Shown here in pieces: positions 3,723-19,411 of a stretch of DNA of 22,444 nt (position 1 is the stretch's first letter; every line of letters starts with the position of its first letter). Source of the stretch: a virus. The notes under the pieces are model-generated. The model did not search any database and was not told where the DNA came from. It saw only the letters and a program-made list of their open reading frames with translations. Where the stretch lies: positions 1 to 22,444 of the IMG/VR virus record IMGVR_UViG_3300042517_000592. One strand, 5' to 3'. Both the position numbers and the translations under genes were made by a program.

Positions 3723-4385
3723 ATGAAAGCATCTAAATTTTGTGTTTTCCTCGACGCGGGTCACGGAGGCATTGACGCAAAGAAAAAATTACCTTACAAT
3801 TATACCACGTATCCTTCAAAGTGCGCTCAGCATAACAACGCAAAGTTCCACGGTTACGGATGGTTCTTTGAAGGCGTGTTTAACCGTGACGTTGCGGCAA
3901 AGATTGAGCAGTATTTGATTGACTGGGGGTTTTCCGTGGTTCGCGTGTACGATCCTGTCTTGGACGTATCATTGACAAAGCGCGTGGCGAAGGCAAATAT
4001 AAACGCCCAGAATTATGAGGCTTCGTTATACCTCAGCATCCACGGCAACGCGGCAACGTCGCCCAATGCAAGGGGCTTCGAGGTGTTCACCAGCAAGGGC
4101 AAAACGCGTTCGGATATTTACGCGGAGTTTCTTTTTAAAGAGGTTCAGGAGGCTTTTCCAAAATGGGTTTATCGCATGGATACCACGGATGGCGATAAGG
4201 ACAAGGAGGAAAGTTTCTTTGTCATTACCCAAACCAATATGCCAGCGGTCTTAAGCGAAAACGGCTTCTTTACAAATTACCATGATGCCTTAATGATGTT
4301 TGACCCTGTGTTTCAAAATACGTTGGCTTTGTCTCATGCACGGGCAGTCGTGGATTACGCGAAGACGCAAGGGGTAATCTTTTAA
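3723..4385 (+). CDS. N-acetylmuramoyl-L-alanine amidase (Amidase_3 endolysin)
   Basis: 220 aa zinc amidase that cleaves the bond between N-acetylmuramic acid and L-alanine in peptidoglycan. Seen: FLDAGHGG with H14, a Glu at E50 in WFFEGVFNRD, SIHGNA with H107, and the catalytic Glu E179 in AVLSENGFF. These are the three metal ligands (H, E, H) and catalytic Glu of the Amidase_3 (PF01520) fold in the expected order. The domain fills the whole protein and there is no separate cell-wall binding domain or signal peptide, so release through the holin is expected. The ATG at 3723 follows an A-rich leader with a strong hairpin. It is the last rightward gene before the convergent leftward operon. Confidence 0.93.
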   Translation: MKASKFCVFLDAGHGGIDAKKKLPYNYTTYPSKCAQHNNAKFHGYGWFFEGVFNRDVAAKIEQYLIDWGFSVVRVYDPVLDVSLTKRVAKANINAQNYEASLYLSIHGNAATSPNARGFEVFTSKGKTRSDIYAEFLFKEVQEAFPKWVYRMDTTDGDKDKEESFFVITQTNMPAVLSENGFFTNYHDALMMFDPVFQNTLALSHARAVVDYAKTQGVIF

Positions 4386-4735: not shown

Positions 4736-4978
4736 TTACTTTGTTTTGTTTAGTTCCTCAATTAAGGCGTCTGCCGTGTCGACCGCACTTTCAACAATGC
4801 GTTCAATTTTAATATCAAGTCCATCTTTGTTACTTATTATTCCTTGCATTGCCATTGATGCAAAGTATTCGCGTTTGGTTAGACCATTACTTTTATAAAT
4901 ATTATCGTCCGAATAATCCTTTTTTGAATTAATAACGTTGTGTATTGGATCGTTTGCTTTTGTTTCAAGATTTTTCAT
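4736..4978 (-). CDS. Unknown small phage protein (GLTKREYFASMAMQG motif)
   Basis: 80 aa. The central stretch GLTKREYFASMAMQG, followed by a helix and a C-terminal ALIEELNKTK, resembles a small hypothetical protein I associate with many Bacteroidota and enterobacterial phages (GLTKREYFA-type), whose function is not known to me. It is soluble and slightly charged. Its ATG overlaps the stop of the RuvC-like gene (ATGA), so it is translationally coupled to it. Confidence 0.7.
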   Translation of the reverse strand: MKNLETKANDPIHNVINSKKDYSDDNIYKSNGLTKREYFASMAMQGIISNKDGLDIKIERIVESAVDTADALIEELNKTK

Positions 4979-6302: not shown

Positions 6303-6350
6303 CAATACGTAAATTTAATATTAAATATTGAAACAAAAAAATATTTACAA
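6303..6350 (-). promoter_or_regulatory. 48-bp promoter-like element, copy 1
   Basis: One of three 48-bp intergenic elements (others at 7636-7683 and 13127-13174) with nearly identical ends. On the minus strand each starts TTGTAAATATTTTTTT and ends TAAATTTACGTATTG, with an inverted GTAAAT/ATTTAC at the two ends. Each lies directly upstream of an A-rich leader and a small leftward gene. The TTG start and the TACGTATTG end recall a degenerate Bacteroidota -33/-7 promoter. Promoter function is inferred. Confidence 0.65.
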
Positions 6351-6368
6351 AAATAAATGCAAAATAAT

Positions 6369-7211
6369 TTAAAATTCATCTCTTTTCCCTTTCAATGGGT
6401 AATGGTTCTTTTTCAACTCCCAGAACTCAGCCATAAGCGAAGCGCGAAACTTGTAATCTCGATCCGTGTGATACCCGCTTTTGTAAACGCACTTACAAAT
6501 GGATTCGTACAACCGTATGCCTTTCATCTTGTAATTTGCCTTTTTACATTCCGCGTATCTTCCTGAGTTCAAAACACCTGCCCAAAGTTTCATGCCTTCT
6601 TCCGTGGTGCTTGCGCTCATAAATTTGGCGCGTATGTATTTGTCACGTCCGCGAATGACCTCCCGTGTTTTGTACGTCACCGACTTTTGATTTTTCAAAG
6701 CCTTCACACCCCCAGCGTTCGCGTGTTTTCTCCAAAGTTCGGTTTCAACCCCTGAGGTCGTCGCCTCAATGATGAAAAAGGAATAAATCATGGATACGGG
6801 GAAATCGGTTAAATGATGTACATTCATCAACATGGATTCATAAGAATACGCCAGCCATATACGACGAATTTTAAAAAGGTCAATTTTATCAAGATTTCTG
6901 AATCCTTTGCCTTCAAGGTTTTTTCTTAATTCATGAATATTCATTTTCCTTATCTCCCAACCGTATGACCTTGAGCCATAAGCCATTTCATTTACTTCGC
7001 CTTTTTCTTCCTTTGCAGGAAAAGTAAGCGTGGTTATTTTGTGAACATACACCGTGTCGCGCTCAATGACTGGCACGAAGGAAGTATAATGGTACTGGGT
7101 ATTTATTGGGGAATAAATCAACCCAACAACGAAGGCAACGCCAACGCCTGCGGCAACTTGGTACGGGAGGCGTTTGTTCTGAGGTACGTAATCAATGATT
7201 TTGTCTTTCAT
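6369..7211 (-). CDS. Membrane-anchored glucosaminidase-like peptidoglycan hydrolase
   Basis: 280 aa. A single N-terminal transmembrane anchor (about residues 17-33) places the rest in the periplasm. From about residue 135 to 275 the sequence resembles the N-acetylglucosaminidase domain (PF01832): FFIIEATTSG with probable catalytic E149, then GVKALKN, a KFMSAST segment, SGRYAECKK, and SGYHTDRDYKFRA near the end, corresponding to the usual GY.TD..Y motif. It is expected to cleave glycan strands. It would be the second wall hydrolase in the window, on the strand opposite the holin-amidase cassette and in the early region, so it might act in wall opening other than final lysis, or as a signal-anchor-release lysin. 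The terminator at 7241-7262 lies about 30 nt upstream of its ATG. Confidence 0.62.
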   Translation of the reverse strand: MKDKIIDYVPQNKRLPYQVAAGVGVAFVVGLIYSPINTQYHYTSFVPVIERDTVYVHKITTLTFPAKEEKGEVNEMAYGSRSYGWEIRKMNIHELRKNLEGKGFRNLDKIDLFKIRRIWLAYSYESMLMNVHHLTDFPVSMIYSFFIIEATTSGVETELWRKHANAGGVKALKNQKSVTYKTREVIRGRDKYIRAKFMSASTTEEGMKLWAGVLNSGRYAECKKANYKMKGIRLYESICKCVYKSGYHTDRDYKFRASLMAEFWELKKNHYPLKGKRDEF

Positions 7212-7612: not shown

Positions 7613-7635
7613 TTGTTTTGTTTTTGTTTTTTTTT

Positions 7636-7683
7636 CAATACGTAAATTTAATATTATTTATTTGAATAAAAAAATATTTACAA
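7636..7683 (-). promoter_or_regulatory. 48-bp promoter-like element, copy 2
   Basis: Second copy of the element at 6303-6350, same length, differing mainly in the middle 12-15 bp. It lies between the terminator at 7701-7726 and the gene starting at 7612, as expected for a transcription restart. Confidence 0.65.
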
Positions 7684-7700
7684 TAATAAAATAAAAAAAA

Positions 7701-13104: not shown

Positions 13105-13126
13105 GATAATTGGCTTTTGTTATTTT

Positions 13127-13174
13127 CAATACGTAAATTTAAATATAATTATTTGAATAAAAAAATATTTACAA
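13127..13174 (-). promoter_or_regulatory. 48-bp promoter-like element, copy 3
   Basis: Third copy of the element at 6303-6350 and 7636-7683, same length, same ends, diverged in the middle. It lies between the terminator at 13192-13216 and the gene starting at 13104. Confidence 0.65.
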
Positions 13175-13191
13175 AAATAAATTAAAAAAAA

Positions 13192-14226: not shown

Positions 14227-15180
14227 TTAATCTTGAAACTTTGCCATCCTTTCGGCAAGCAATTCTTGAAGCCTGTCATTATACGCTTTGTCCTTTGCCG
14301 CTGGGCTTGTCGTTTGGTATGCCGTAAATATCTTTGAGGCTTGTCCATAAATGTTTGCTATGGTGAAATTTGCCCTCAGCCATTTGTCATTCAAGTTCCA
14401 CGCGGCTTGTATAAACACCTTCAATGCCTCAAGGCTATCGCCCTGCCTGTCTATTTTGTCAATGTATTTCAGGAGATTTCCCATTTGCCCTGCATCTTTG
14501 GGCATCATAATATAATGTCCATTTTGATCCGTGGGATACGCGGCACCGGATAAGGATTCAAACGTTTGGCAAAACACGGTGAAGGCGGCGTAAGTGGGGG
14601 AGGGCGTCTTTTCTTTTTCTTTTTTCGCGGAACTTTTTTCTTTTTCTTTTTCACTTTGCAACTTAGCAACAACGGTAAAGGGGTTTACTTTGGGGGTTTG
14701 GACATTTGGAAAATCATTTGAAACTTTTGTAAAGTCGGTAAAATCTGAAGGATTTTCAACTAATACTTGAATATGGTTAATACTTGAATTGGCTAATACT
14801 TCAAGGGGCTTCATTGGTGAAGGCGTCCCCCCTTCATGGATGAATATCCCCCCCTCTTCATCATTAAAGGGGGAGGTATCCAAATTTGACATATTTTTAC
14901 CCGTTACAAATACGCCGATTAACTCCGTGGTAATCTTATAAAGGTTACTTGTTTGGCTTCCATCAGGTCTAAAGCGTTGTTTTACGCTTATAATTTTCCG
15001 TGTTACCAATTCATTTTTAACCCGTAAAATCTTTGAATCGCTGAATCCAGATTGTTCAATCAATTTTTTGTTTGAAGGGAAACACATACGGTTTTCATTC
15101 ATAAAATTTACAATGTGACAAAGGAGAAACAACTGGTCAGGCGTCACCTGCGGCAAAAGTCTTGTATCAATGTTTATCAT
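14227..15180 (-). CDS. Winged-helix replication initiator-like protein
   Basis: 317 aa. The N-terminal ~80 residues read as a winged helix: LPQVTPDQLFLLCHIVNFM, then PSNKKLIEQSGFSDSKILRV (helix-turn-helix with recognition helix), then KIISVKQRFRPDGSQTSNLY (wing). This is the pattern of phage replication proteins with an N-terminal DnaD/Rep-type wHTH. A Ser/Lys/Glu-rich linker (about 175-190) follows, then a C-terminal helical domain with WNLNDKWLRANFTIANIYGQ, similar to DnaD/DnaB2-type C-terminal regions. It is expected to bind the phage origin and recruit the helicase. Its ATG lies 13 nt after the base of a terminator-like hairpin that belongs to the loop-loop leader at 15194-15285. Confidence 0.72.
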   Translation of the reverse strand: MINIDTRLLPQVTPDQLFLLCHIVNFMNENRMCFPSNKKLIEQSGFSDSKILRVKNELVTRKIISVKQRFRPDGSQTSNLYKITTELIGVFVTGKNMSNLDTSPFNDEEGGIFIHEGGTPSPMKPLEVLANSSINHIQVLVENPSDFTDFTKVSNDFPNVQTPKVNPFTVVAKLQSEKEKEKSSAKKEKEKTPSPTYAAFTVFCQTFESLSGAAYPTDQNGHYIMMPKDAGQMGNLLKYIDKIDRQGDSLEALKVFIQAAWNLNDKWLRANFTIANIYGQASKIFTAYQTTSPAAKDKAYNDRLQELLAERMAKFQD

Positions 15181-15193
15181 AAGTTTATAAAAA

Positions 15194-15285
15194 AACCCAG
15201 CAGGTGCAAGGCTACTGGGTTAGATGAAACAATGCGGATATTGTCCCGAAGTTCTTTTGAATGACTTGCACCTCGTTCAAAAGAA
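15194..15285 (-). promoter_or_regulatory. Loop-loop RNA leader A (structured 5' leader of initiator gene)
   Basis: On the minus strand: hairpin P1 (10 bp, 15276-15285 with 15252-15261, 14-nt loop), a middle hairpin around 15228-15248, then hairpin P3 (15215-15221 with 15194-15200) followed by a U7 tract and the ATG at 15180. The P1 loop segment 15265-15273 is a perfect 9-nt complement of the P3 loop segment 15202-15210. A TATCTTTA box (15290-15297) ends about 6 nt upstream of the P1 8-bp core. Compare leader B at 17733-17821. Confidence 0.78.
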
Positions 15286-15303
15286 TGATTAAAGATAAAG
15301 AAT

Positions 15304-15909
15304 TTATTTCATTTCCTTCAGGTATAAAGTAAGGTCTTGCACTAATTTTTCAATCTGATTAATTTCAAGATTATTTATTGCCTTAGTTACAAAATCTTCA
15401 GCCTTGCATTTTACAACAACTGTTCTATCTTTTAACCCAGCTATTTCCATGCCTTGCTTTGCGCTTATTTCACGGTTAATTACCTTAGTGGCAATGTCAG
15501 GGGCATCACGTTTAAGGCGTTGAATTTGGTATTGTCTTGAAGTACCTTTATCAATTTGAGGAGGTGATATATAACCTCCTTTATTGTGTTGATTAATGCC
15601 GTGTTTAGGCATTGCATTAATTTGTTCTTCATGTTCCTGCCAAATATTAGGTTTTCGCTTACAATGTGCTTTTATAACATCAATGTCCCAGCCTAATCCC
15701 CAGGGCACTTCGTACCTTGCAAATTCTACATAAGTTGTAAAAGTTTTAGGAGACAAACCATAAGGGTGTCTGTTACTCCAAAAGTCTTTAAATGAATATA
15801 AAGAATCAAAATAGGTCATGGCTAAACCAAAACTGTTTATACCATTTATGTCAATAAGTTTATTGTAAACTTCCTCTGGATTAGTGCTTAGTGAAATTGC
15901 TGATGTCAT
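15304..15909 (-). CDS. HTH/ParB-like DNA-binding protein
   Basis: 201 aa. N-terminus YFDSLYSFKDFWSNRHPYGL and a WGLGWDIDVIKAHCKRKPN centre are not recognised, but residues about 125-165 (GTSRQYQIQRLKRDAPDIAT followed by KVINREISAKQGMEIAGLK) closely follow the pattern of a small DNA-binding segment common in plasmid and phage ParB-like proteins (GnS..Y.l.RLkrd.Pel...v..gelsa..A...AG). It overlaps the end of the HNH-helicase gene by 29 bases, so both come from one mRNA. A role as DNA-targeting partner of the helicase, or as a regulator, is inferred. Confidence 0.6.
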   Translation of the reverse strand: MTSAISLSTNPEEVYNKLIDINGINSFGLAMTYFDSLYSFKDFWSNRHPYGLSPKTFTTYVEFARYEVPWGLGWDIDVIKAHCKRKPNIWQEHEEQINAMPKHGINQHNKGGYISPPQIDKGTSRQYQIQRLKRDAPDIATKVINREISAKQGMEIAGLKDRTVVVKCKAEDFVTKAINNLEINQIEKLVQDLTLYLKEMK

Positions 15910-17719
15910 CGTTAATGATTTGTAATTTTTTATTTAATAATCTTAAGTCCATACAAGTTTTATGATCCTTAATATTTGCAGCTTCATTGTATTTATAATG
16001 AGCGTTTTGATACTCAGTGTAAATACCTAACCTTATAGCATATCCAACTCTTTTGTGAATTTCCTTTTTTACAAGTTTGATTTTTTCGTACTTAGGAATT
16101 TCATCTATTTTATTGTTTTCCTGAGGTTCATCTTTCTGAATATTCCTTGCAATCATATTTTCAAAAATACTTGCTAAAGCATAGTTTAAATCTTTGACTT
16201 GGTTTAAAGCATCTATTTCTTGGTCAGTAAACTTATATCCATTGTTTATAATACCATGATTTCCAGCTATTATATCGTCGAATAAAGTTTGTATTGTTTT
16301 AGGTTTTCTTTCTAAACCTTCACTTAGTCCAGTATTAATCCTTTTATTTTCGTCTATTACAAAATGCTTATAGCCTGCTTCAAGAGTTTCTGCAACCTCA
16401 GTAAATAAAGAAAAATTAGGATAATAAAAATAGCAATGGTCTATTGCATTTTGATAAACCTTGCAATTTCTTACACCTCTACCCATTACTTGTTCAAAGT
16501 ATGTCCTGGTTGTAATATTGTTTAAATACAGGATAACACGTATTTGAGGAATGTTTACTCCTTCAGAAACCATTTGAACAGTCACAACCCAATGCTTATT
16601 ATTATTTCTAAATTCTTTTATTGTTTCGGTAGTTGAATCCGCGTCACTTGTAATAATAGAACAGCTTATATTTTGATTTTGTAGATTACTAAAAATACTT
16701 TTAGCATCTTCAATCGTGTTGGCAATAATTAAACCTTTTGCCTCAGGATAATAAGTATTTCTTATTCCTTTTAATTCTTTGTTAGCTTGATTAAAAGCAA
16801 TGTCAATAAAATTACTATTTCCATTTGAGGCATCTATTATTTGATTTAAATATTTTTTATTCTCCTCACCTATTATAACGCCACCTTCTCCATTAATAAT
16901 TACATCAATAGGTCTAAATGAAGTAGGGCAACATATACGATCTTTTACACTTTGAGCATACGTGTAAGAATAATCTGTTTCAATTTCCCAACCATCAATA
17001 TCATTAGATTTTGTTTCCTTATATTTTACAAAAGGTATTTTACTATTATCGCTTCTAAAAGGAGTTCCTGTTAAACATAAAATTACCCCAGCATTCTCAC
17101 AAATATTTTCAAGTTCAATACCCCAGCTTCCAGAATCAGAAGCATGGTGATGTTCATCTAAAACTACAATGGTTTTATTTGTTATCTTGTTTTTTAATGA
17201 ATTAGTATTGTTTTTTAAAATTTGATAGCAAAGGGAAACACCATGAAAGTCAGGTTTCCAATGATATTTAAACAAATAATTTGCATCAATTTCAAGGTTA
17301 AATTTTTTACATTCAATAGCCCAATCCGTTTTAATAGCATCTTTTGGACTAAAAATAACAACATCAAATCCATCGTCAACGAAATTTTTTATAATTGACG
17401 AAGCCCACAAAGTTTTTCCTGAACCTACTCCAGCATGAAGTAAAAATACTTTGTTAGATTTAATTTCCTCATAGAATTTTTTAGTGGCTTCTATTTGCCA
17501 TTGTCTCGGTTTAAATTCAAACATTTTATTAGATTTTTTTAAGTTACAAGTTGGACATAATGCCTGGGCATTATTTAATGAAGTTATCCCTCCTTTGCTA
17601 AAAGGTATAACGTGGTCAGCATGCCAAAACCTTGGAAGGTTGCATTTACACAACTGGCATTTGCCGTCAGCAAGTCTGTATAAAAATGCTTTTTCTGAAT
17701 CGGAGTAATTCCTTTTCAT
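15881..17719 (-). CDS. HNH endonuclease-SF2 helicase fusion protein
   Basis: 612 aa from the ATG at 17719; a longer frame from 17830 would translate the structured leader and is rejected. Residues 1-66 are an HNH/zinc module: C21-x2-C24, HADH at 33-36, FSKGG, N50 and C55-x2-C58. Residues about 72-600 form a superfamily 2 helicase: Q-like region, Walker A AGVGSGKT (96-103), DEHH box (188-191), TGTPFR (217-222), motif V MVSEGVNIP (383-391) and motif VI QVMGRGVR (410-417). It is expected to move on duplex or branched DNA using ATP, and the HNH part may cut or anchor DNA. The C-terminus is Lys-rich and helical. It could be the phage replicative or recombination helicase or a DNA-attack enzyme. 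Its leader is the second loop-loop element. Confidence 0.85.
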   Translation of the reverse strand: MKRNYSDSEKAFLYRLADGKCQLCKCNLPRFWHADHVIPFSKGGITSLNNAQALCPTCNLKKSNKMFEFKPRQWQIEATKKFYEEIKSNKVFLLHAGVGSGKTLWASSIIKNFVDDGFDVVIFSPKDAIKTDWAIECKKFNLEIDANYLFKYHWKPDFHGVSLCYQILKNNTNSLKNKITNKTIVVLDEHHHASDSGSWGIELENICENAGVILCLTGTPFRSDNSKIPFVKYKETKSNDIDGWEIETDYSYTYAQSVKDRICCPTSFRPIDVIINGEGGVIIGEENKKYLNQIIDASNGNSNFIDIAFNQANKELKGIRNTYYPEAKGLIIANTIEDAKSIFSNLQNQNISCSIITSDADSTTETIKEFRNNNKHWVVTVQMVSEGVNIPQIRVILYLNNITTRTYFEQVMGRGVRNCKVYQNAIDHCYFYYPNFSLFTEVAETLEAGYKHFVIDENKRINTGLSEGLERKPKTIQTLFDDIIAGNHGIINNGYKFTDQEIDALNQVKDLNYALASIFENMIARNIQKDEPQENNKIDEIPKYEKIKLVKKEIHKRVGYAIRLGIYTEYQNAHYKYNEAANIKDHKTCMDLRLLNKKLQIINDDISNFTKH

Positions 17720-17732
17720 AGTAAAAATAAAA

Positions 17733-17821
17733 AAACCCACAAAGGCACTACTCTTTATGGGTTTAATGAGGTAAATGGTTTCCTCAAATACCTTTTGCTG
17801 GGTAGTGCGTCCTGCAAAAAG
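17733..17821 (-). promoter_or_regulatory. Loop-loop RNA leader B (structured 5' leader of HNH-helicase gene)
   Basis: On the minus strand: P1 (8 bp, 17814-17821 with 17791-17798, 15-nt loop), middle hairpin P2 (17782-17786 with 17767-17771), then P3 (12 bp, 17753-17764 with 17733-17744, 8-nt loop), U-tract and ATG 17719. P1 loop segment 17802-17808 is a perfect 7-nt complement of P3 loop segment 17745-17751. The exact -7 box TATATTTG (17828-17835) ends 6 nt before P1. The P3 stem ends 13 nt before the ATG, as in leader A. Confidence 0.8.
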
Positions 17822-17846
17822 TTTAAGCAAATATACAAAATATTAT

Positions 17847-18653: not shown

Positions 18654-18661
18654 GTGTAATT

Positions 18662-18705
18662 TTAAGAGAGATTAAGAGAGATTTAATTAGAGATTTAAGA
18701 GAGGT
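18662..18705. repeat. Four helically phased TTAAGAGAGAT-like repeats
   Basis: Four AT/purine repeats start at about 18662, 18672, 18684 and 18695, close to 11-bp (one helical turn) spacing: two exact TTAAGAGAGAT units, one TTAATTAGAGAT, one TTAAGAGAGGT. They lie between the palindrome and tRNA-like gene 1. Such phased iterons are typical of initiator or regulator binding sites. Confidence 0.6.
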
Positions 18706-18713
18706 TTAAAAAA

Positions 18714-18824
18714 AGCAAGGGCAGCATTCGAAACTGCACGGTGGATTTTATAAGGTTATTTTCTCTGTTTTACGTTGCAACATCCACCCAACCCTTAAGC
18801 GTCTACCAATTCCGCCACCTTGCT
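18714..18824 (-). tRNA. tRNA-like gene 1 (Leu-type D arm, long abnormal middle)
   Basis: Seen: acceptor strands AGCAAGG/CCTTGCT (7 bp), U8-G9, D arm GCGGAATTGGTAGACGC as in tRNA-Leu, and T arm GCAGT-TTCGAAT-GCTGC. Between D and T arms lie 61 nt, about 25-30 more than a type II tRNA needs, and no 5-bp/7-nt anticodon arm can be found. TAAGG pairs with a later CCTTA, and GGTGGAT with a later ATCCACC, in an interlocked (pseudoknot) order. It could be a tRNA-Leu with an insertion or intron, or a tRNA-like RNA. No CCA is encoded. Confidence 0.5.
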
Positions 18825-18838
18825 AATTAATTTTAAAA

Positions 18839-19003
18839 TTAACTTAATAAATTACCTAAGAAAATACCTAATGCAAAAGTTGCTAACACTAGTCCTACAA
18901 ATCTTCTGCTAGATACATCTTTAATAGGTACATCTTTAATAAAAGATGGTATTGTCCAACTCGATATGATAATTACCCATCCTACAATCATTGCTATTTC
19001 CAT
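18839..19003 (-). CDS. Small two-helix membrane protein
   Basis: 54 aa starting MEIAMIVGWVIIISSWTIP; a longer frame would run into tRNA-like gene 2 and is rejected. One hydrophobic helix is at residues 3-16, then a charged loop (KDVPIKDVSSRR), then a second helix FVGLVLATFALGIFLGNLL. It is sandwiched between tRNA-like genes 1 and 2 with 15 bases on each side, so all three are probably on one transcript. Function unknown. Confidence 0.5.
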   Translation of the reverse strand: MEIAMIVGWVIIISSWTIPSFIKDVPIKDVSSRRFVGLVLATFALGIFLGNLLS

Positions 19004-19018
19004 AATTAAAATTTTAGT

Positions 19019-19112
19019 AGCAAGGGCGGGAATCGAACCCGCTTGTGCACCGCTCAACGTTGAGTAGCTTGCGTACACGGTTAGCCCTGGCGATACCTTT
19101 CGCCACCTTGCT
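19019..19112 (-). tRNA. tRNA-like gene 2 (abnormal middle)
   Basis: Acceptor AGCAAGG/CCTTGCT is identical to that of gene 1. A GCGA-AAGGTA-TCGC hairpin sits at the D-arm position and the T arm is GCGGG-TTCGATT-CCCGC. The 47-nt middle has no proper anticodon arm; instead GTGTAC pairs with GTGCAC (one U-G) enclosing a CTCAA-CG-TTGAG hairpin. The T-arm plus acceptor sequence is shared with gene 3. No CCA encoded. A standard tRNA identity cannot be given. Confidence 0.45.
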
Positions 19113-19177
19113 TTTTACACCGTTCCATCCCTTTATCAACGCACGGTGCCAGCATTGCTCAACCTTCGGGTGGTAAG

Positions 19178-19298
19178 TACAAGGGCGGGAATCGAACCCG
19201 CGGCACACTCGCTTGACACCCTACACACCTCATACTTTCGTATGGAACGGACTCGAACCGTTGTCGCCAGTTGCTCTAACCTACTGAGCTACCTTGTT
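19178..19298 (-). tRNA. tRNA-like gene 3 (composite, two T-arm-like hairpins)
   Basis: 5' part: acceptor AACAAGG, U8-A9, canonical D arm GCTC-AGTAGGTTA-GAGC, A26, then ACTGG like a 5' anticodon strand. Its 3' partner is missing; a second T-arm-like hairpin AACGG-TTCGAGT-CCGTT (19246-19262) and a CATAC-GAAA-GTATG hairpin (19231-19244) follow. The 3' end is GCGGG-TTCGATT-CCCGC then CCTTGTA (acceptor pairs 6 of 7). It reads like a fusion of two tRNA pieces, or like a tRNA with a large insertion. If the second T-like arm is instead an anticodon arm, its anticodon would be CGA. Confidence 0.45.
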
Positions 19299-19375
19299 AA
19301 ACCTGCAAGTGAAGGAATCTAATCTTCGTCTTTTTGCCGTCGCAAAACATTTTAACATTAAACTAACTTGCGCCA

Positions 19376-19391
19376 CAAAGTTACAAATATA
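19376..19391 (-). promoter_or_regulatory. Candidate leftward promoter -7 boxes for the tRNA-like array
   Basis: Two exact Bacteroidota-type -7 boxes are on the minus strand: TATATTTG (plus 19384-19391) and TAACTTTG (plus 19376-19383). Neither has a clear -33 TTTG at standard distance. Either could start the leftward RNA through the tRNA-like genes toward the methyltransferase. A small TTTTGC-CGTC-GCAAAA hairpin (19332-19347) lies downstream in that RNA. Confidence 0.45.
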
Positions 19392-19411
19392 TTCTTAAAA
19401 AATATTTTAAA

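Follow-up and report, generated by a model that had tools for sequence, protein, structure and literature searches.

The control of a phage gene by its own leader, through RNA pairing and premature termination of transcription, is a device of a kind that is already known. In T4-type phages a promoter and a terminator-like stem-loop are shuffled as mobile cassettes among unrelated genes, and in the RNA I/II pair of ColE1 the loops are fully paired over 7 nt, as they are in the cassettes described here. Attenuation in pT181 involves a kissing hairpin (PMC3753616). In P4 transcription of the replication genes is stopped when the CI RNA base-pairs with segments of its own leader that are complementary to it, and in Gifsy-1 the prophage promoter of IsrK gives rise to a short terminated RNA, which acts on the longer read-through mRNA (both PMC4825925).

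The window considered here is a viral record of 22,444 bp. The amidase/endolysin that it encodes has its nearest relatives in phages of Tenacibaculum, Cellulophaga and Maribacter, and the promoter boxes are of the Bacteroidota type; the host therefore probably belongs to the Bacteroidota. Three intergenic stretches on the minus strand, at about 6310-6370, 7615-7690 and 13110-13190, have TGTAAATATTTTTTT...TTAAATTTACGTATTGAAA in common ahead of genes, two of them directly after a simple terminator, which probably represents a further repeated promoter element of the phage. The same strand holds a tRNA-like array (18660-19400). A tRNA match of 40.5 bits lies in it at 19303-19372, and the tRNA-like piece at 19244-19293 has a very short region in place of the anticodon arm; there are also two tmRNA-like T arms (19185-19202 and 19026-19042). 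ARAGORN reported none of these.

Two leaders of identical plan lie on the minus strand. Leader B (17717-17835) begins with a Bacteroidota-type -7 box of the form TATNTTTR, TATATTTG (17835-17828). Hairpin P1 (17822-17790) has 9 bp, 17822-17814 with 17798-17790, and a 15-nt loop (17813-17799) containing the word GCACUAC at 17808-17802; P1 is the probable 5' end of the RNA. It is followed by the small hairpin P2 (17786-17767), whose 5 bp UGAGG/CCUCA join 17786-17782 to 17771-17767 and which is kept, with other sequences, in aligned relatives. The terminator-like hairpin P3 (17764-17733) has 12 bp, 17764-17753 with 17744-17733, and an 8-nt loop (17752-17745) that carries the word GUAGUGC at 17751-17745. 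A U-rich tract lies in the 13-nt gap (17732-17720) that separates P3 from the ATG at 17719, a start position that is kept in relatives, and the gene behind it (15881-17719, minus strand) encodes 612 aa with HNH and ResIII/Helicase_C domains (Pfam, PHROGs). No conserved -33 element was found upstream of the box. The minimum free energy of the leader is -31 kcal/mol vs a mean of -18.4 for shuffled sequences (z = -3.8).

Leader A (15178-15297, minus strand) has its box, TATCTTTA, at 15290-15297 (TATCTTTG in the relative L008), a P1 of 10 bp with a 14-nt loop (15252-15285; word GUGCAAG at 15271-15265), a P2 of 8 bp including G-U (15226-15247; GGGACAAU/AUUGUUUC) and a terminator-like P3 (15194-15221; word CUUGCAC at 15210-15204) with a U-tract from 15193. 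Its words, too, form 7 Watson-Crick pairs between the P1 and P3 loops, its ATG stands 13 nt 3' of P3 as in leader B, and its gene is a replication initiator (14227-15180, minus strand; HTH_36/O-like in Pfam and PHROGs). All the elements of the original prediction for leader B were thus located on the minus strand: the perfect loop complementarity, which is 7 Watson-Crick pairs, the 12-bp P3 with its U-tract and 13 nt to the ATG (17764-17719), the small middle hairpin, found as P2 in both leaders, and the likeness of A and B in box, P1, P2, P3, U-tract and ATG. The exact box that it placed 6 nt ahead of P1 is 6 nt from an 8-bp core of P1 and 5 nt from the 9-bp stem.

Like the P4 immunity leader, these are short structured leaders with internally complementary segments ahead of replication genes, and we propose that here, as in P4, RNA pairing decides premature termination (for P4, PMC4825925). 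Unlike P4, the complementary segments are hairpin loops with 7 pairs and the U-tract terminator stands right before the ATG; there are at most two cassettes per genome and many words. Loop-loop kissing by 7 Watson-Crick pairs, found in 85 of 85 cassettes, is shared with antisense control of the pT181/ColE1 type, but here both partners are in one RNA and no separate antisense gene was found; a scan for the exact box only gave no TANNTTTG on the plus strand near leaders A and B. A short terminated form and a read-through form, as proposed here, would recall the Gifsy-1 IsrK leader, which is a different RNA with a single locus and no self-matching loop pair in the available part of its description (PMC4825925). 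The cassettes resemble riboswitches and amino-acid attenuators in that a terminator-bearing leader precedes a gene, but they have no conserved unpaired ligand core, no link to metabolite genes and no exclusive antiterminator hairpin. A riboswitch was rejected: loops and linkers vary, and the invariant columns are those of the box, stems and U-tract, save for single letters. Unlike T4-type cassettes, those described here have, after the promoter, a structured leader that ends in a terminator, and a conserved kissing pair.

The two leaders are far more than AT-rich DNA provides by chance. A descriptor comprising P1 and the P3 terminator with its T-tract, and demanding at least 7 consecutive Watson-Crick matches between the loops, matched the window twice, exactly at leaders A and B, while dinucleotide-preserving shuffles of the window (n=553, both strands) gave 12 matches, an expectation of 0.022 per window. 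When only the two loops of leader B were shuffled a 7-nt match arose in 196 of 200,000 trials (0.1%), and loop shuffling across all cassettes produced a match in 0.3% of trials. By themselves the TANNTTTG boxes are no commoner in the window than expected (34 vs 34.3), which is a point in favour of chance hairpins; it is their position relative to P1 that is fixed, at 4-6 nt in 79 of the 83 cassettes measured. The shuffles, the covariation, the 85 loop matches and the concerted changes in the loops rule out chance as a candidate, and with conservation and covariation against it we give it practically no credence. What the original prediction saw is genuine, with a stronger case than it had made.

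Relatives provided the covariation. A query with the helicase led to 8 loci in which the corresponding place has the same architecture with different loops. Searching by pairing model, in the form of the descriptor, yielded further relatives, which together with those from pattern scans made up an alignment of 38 distinct cassettes (A1). In A1 covariation is seen in the kiss as well as in P1, P2 and P3, with double changes in 27 of 34 pairs, and none of 500 shuffles was as good. In the kiss helix all 266 of 266 cells are paired, every one of them Watson-Crick, with double changes in each of its 7 pairs; sliding the register by 1-3 columns abolishes the signal, one column being enough. The view that the loop pairing has covaried is therefore upheld, both by these 7 of 7 pairs (n=38) and by 85 of 85 matched cassettes. 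RNAalifold, run independently, recovered P1 and P3 only, with P1 extended to leave a loop of about 10 nt and with a P3 loop of 8 nt, 7 of them in the kiss. A scan with a palindromic-P1 pattern gave mostly chance loci, which were reused as a negative control: these 73 loci (0.82 Mb) contained one true cassette (L048) and nothing further above 30 bits. P2 and P3 contain G-U pairs, which are pairs on the sense strand only; this makes a function of the hairpins at the DNA level less likely, and that candidate was set aside. Comparison of the sequences shows instead a conserved sense-strand RNA that is under selection and is present more than once.

The 38 cassettes had been picked by loop match and were therefore unable to test it. 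A covariance model of P1, P2 and P3 that ignores the kiss was run on loci; it was trained on those same 38 loop-matched cassettes, which leaves it blind to the pairing, though not to typical loop letters. Its E-values are rough, but its scores separate true cassettes (70-116 bits) from the rest (below 40 bits, topped by a remnant in L291). In addition, 76 loci were gathered through the conserved C-terminal domain of the replication initiator, with no use of the leader: 70 had a cassette in the 3 kb ahead of the gene and the other 6 had at most 364 bp of upstream sequence, so that all 70 with longer upstream sequence carry it. The pooled set comprises 85 distinct cassettes on related phage contigs, all metagenomic, and was mostly collected without using the kiss. 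A perfect 7-nt Watson-Crick loop match is found in all 85, with 18 words and no G-U pairs; the cassettes are related by descent, and so they are not 85 independent events, the 18 words being nearer to the independent number.

Some cassettes depart from the standard form. The remnant in L291 (7523-7657, plus strand), which was excluded from the 85, lies ahead of an ATG, and the opposite strand carries an intact cassette divergent to it; the remnant retains P3, with loop AGTCCTAC, together with the 3' half of P2, and lacks a matching P1. A variant in L144 (5478-5593, minus strand), L154 (4455-4570, minus strand), L339 (667-782) and L340 (3996-4111) has a P1 mismatch and an interrupted U-tract (GTTCTCATTTTT), with the 7-nt kiss GTGCAGC/GCTGCAC intact. 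In L358 two plus-strand cassettes (4159-4273 and 4771-4889), only about 500 bp apart, each have an imperfect P3 stem adjoining an intact kiss.

Bacteroidota promoters have a known spacing from the -7 box to the transcription start. Across the 85 cassettes the box has the profile T-A-T-M-T-T-T-R, and since it ends 4-6 nt ahead of P1, the RNA would by this spacing begin at or next to P1. Conservation extends from about 8 nt 5' of the box to the end of the U-tract; no conserved -33 element was found across the cassettes, which would be compatible with a weak promoter or with one that depends on a phage factor. In 80 of 83 cassettes the 8 nt that follow P3 include at least 6 T, and judged by sequence P3 and the U-tract make a good intrinsic terminator, though P3 could instead be a 5' structure of the mRNA and no terminator. 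At the level of sequence, then, the order is that of an attenuator, a promoter followed by a leader with a hairpin and U-tract ahead of the first codon. The series P1-P2-P3-U-tract would equally make up a complete small RNA (~95 nt), and a free small RNA gene might be imagined, with its own promoter and terminator and with the adjoining genes expressed in some other way. The distance from P3 to the ATG speaks against this: it is 13-17 nt in 70 of 83 cassettes whatever gene follows, too short for another promoter, which makes a free small RNA very unlikely and suggests that the gene is expressed by read-through of P3.

RNA truncated ahead of the 3' arm of P3 was folded in search of a mutually exclusive antiterminator hairpin, and none was found: the 5' arm of P3 lacks a consistent partner (mean paired 0.30). 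This alternative was rejected, as no competing hairpin is conserved in the truncated RNAs and RNAalifold gives P1 and P3 only. Because there is no such competitor, no conserved element was seen, apart from the loop-loop contact, that would be able to modulate P3. We think it somewhat probable that the unit is a mobile promoter with a self-attenuating leader, in which the kissing loop of P1 and P3 sets the read-through of P3 for early phage genes; the cassette gives the impression of a self-contained RNA switch acting on such genes. Transcription from the TATNTTTR box would start at or next to P1 and produce an RNA of about 95 nt that contains P1, P2 and then P3, an intrinsic terminator directly before the start codon. 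Most transcripts would stop at P3, and the gene product would come only from read-through. A 7-bp kissing helix of tuned strength would take the place of the classical antiterminator, forming while P3 emerges and setting the frequency of termination there; it might also affect the accessibility of the AUG. Start, termination, read-through, the direction of the effect and action in cis rather than in trans are the inferred parts of this picture. Against it stands the lack of a classical antiterminator through which the kiss would alter termination, and the kiss could also merely stabilise the RNA.

The words themselves bear on these possibilities. Their duplex energies are -9.1 +/- 1.0 kcal/mol although the words vary, whereas shuffling their columns gives a standard deviation of 2.1, with none of 3000 shuffles as narrow as observed; the words share ancestry, so this supports tuning and does not prove it. 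Kisses that are too weak and too strong both appear to be avoided, which fits a switch better than a mere brace. The changes in the loops are concerted: L328 and L344 differ by one compensated loop pair (U-A to A-U) with scaffolds that differ at 3 of 80 letters, and L310 and L361 by two compensated pairs with 2 differences in 79.

Phage leaders that are read as antitermination shapes, by put- or Q-like logic, are known elsewhere and lend some weight to an architectural RNA, a kissed P1-P3 fold read by RNA polymerase or by a phage antiterminator protein, in which the words matter for pairing alone. The shape is indeed kept while the sequence varies, and the cassette stands at the start of early-type gene transcripts. 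Purely architectural function, however, needs no upper bound on the strength of the kiss, the U-tract of P3 points to termination at this very site, and no candidate factor was identified, so we consider it unlikely.

The main rival to a kiss in cis is an effect of the terminated RNA in trans, which is possible though we doubt it. As in P4 CI or pT181, the terminated leader of ~95 nt would accumulate, and its P3 (or P1) loop would pair with the nascent leader of another copy and cause termination; the words would be specificity codes, serving copy-number feedback or the exclusion of like phage. Each leader has both a word and its complement, as does the P4 leader (PMC4825925), and the attenuator of the pT181 replication gene works through a kissing hairpin (PMC3753616). 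The 18 words circulate among related phages with strictly Watson-Crick pairing and bounded energy, and no contig with two cassettes has the same word twice. This avoidance of equal words is not significant, however (0 of 15 combinations, 1.4 expected from the pooled set, P = 0.20), and the two words of one genome may differ at a single base (GTAGCAG/GTAGGAG). The two words of a cassette are, moreover, always 48-55 nt apart with a one-hairpin linker (P2) between them, a constant geometry that suggests intramolecular pairing and favours the kiss in cis.

The cassette is separable from the gene that follows it. One word occurs before different genes, and one gene family has different words: GTAGCAG and GTAGGAG each precede at least 5 gene families, while methyltransferase genes carry at least 6 words. 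Contigs have one or two cassettes. Where there are two, the second is ahead of the replication initiator; the other, or the sole one, heads an exchangeable gene slot that contains DNA methyltransferases with a ParB-like N-terminus, the HNH-helicase, HNH/AP2-type proteins or others (names based on sequence motifs unless Pfam or PHROGs is cited). Some methyltransferase homologues (L384-L387, L395) have no cassette, which shows that cassette and gene can part. In the replication initiators that follow the leader, one conserved C-terminal domain is joined to dissimilar N-terminal parts, of which there are at least four (alignment A3; window 14227-15180), so that domain exchange adjoins the cassette. 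With words and downstream genes shuffled in this manner, the leader behaves as a mobile regulatory cassette, one regulatory unit before unrelated genes. The original prediction of a duplicated RNA regulatory module for replication genes holds in that this is an RNA module present in more than one copy, selected and covarying; its restriction to a duplication and to replication genes is not supported, as A and B are members of a large shuffled family much of whose cargo is DNA methyltransferases or HNH proteins.

The spread of one word over at least 5 gene families, the six or more words of the methyltransferase genes and the variable Rep N-termini directly downstream would suit a cassette that serves mainly in recombination, for swapping cargo between phages through the promoter-terminator sequence that they share, with the kiss as a by-product. 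That reading leaves the 85 of 85 loop matches and their concerted changes unexplained and is highly improbable as the main function; as an added role of the cassette, recombination is compatible with a self-attenuating leader. Rather speculatively, the family might be a natural library of coded switches, in which recognition by a terminated leader is confined to leaders bearing the word that it has itself, at least 18 near-isoenergetic codes in co-circulating phages serve copy-number feedback or the exclusion of like phage, and codes and cargo are swapped as a unit.

Within the scope of the searches made, the RNA family is new. No family of Rfam 15 covers the leaders at gathering score and E-value thresholds, there is no DNA similarity to cultured phages, and protein searches gave only distant helicases and the N-terminal part of Rep. 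The cassette is absent from the three cultured phages examined (Flavobacterium tant8-1, Croceibacter P2559S and Bacteroides BK649P1). The exact P2 sequence occurs in 3 records of a genome collection, from other phyla, with 0 matches to the model, and no description of the cassette was found in the literature searched, which covered few subscription journals.

Comparative evidence supports this RNA family very strongly, and the phages that carry it are so far known only from metagenomes. The 18 natural, matched and near-isoenergetic kissing-loop pairs of the family are carried on a common scaffold, so that exchanging the words would put loop-loop control of intrinsic termination, acting in cis or in trans, to a direct test. 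In these phages, whose hosts are probably Bacteroidota, promoter-plus-leader cassettes shuffle among methyltransferase, HNH-protein and replication-initiator genes.
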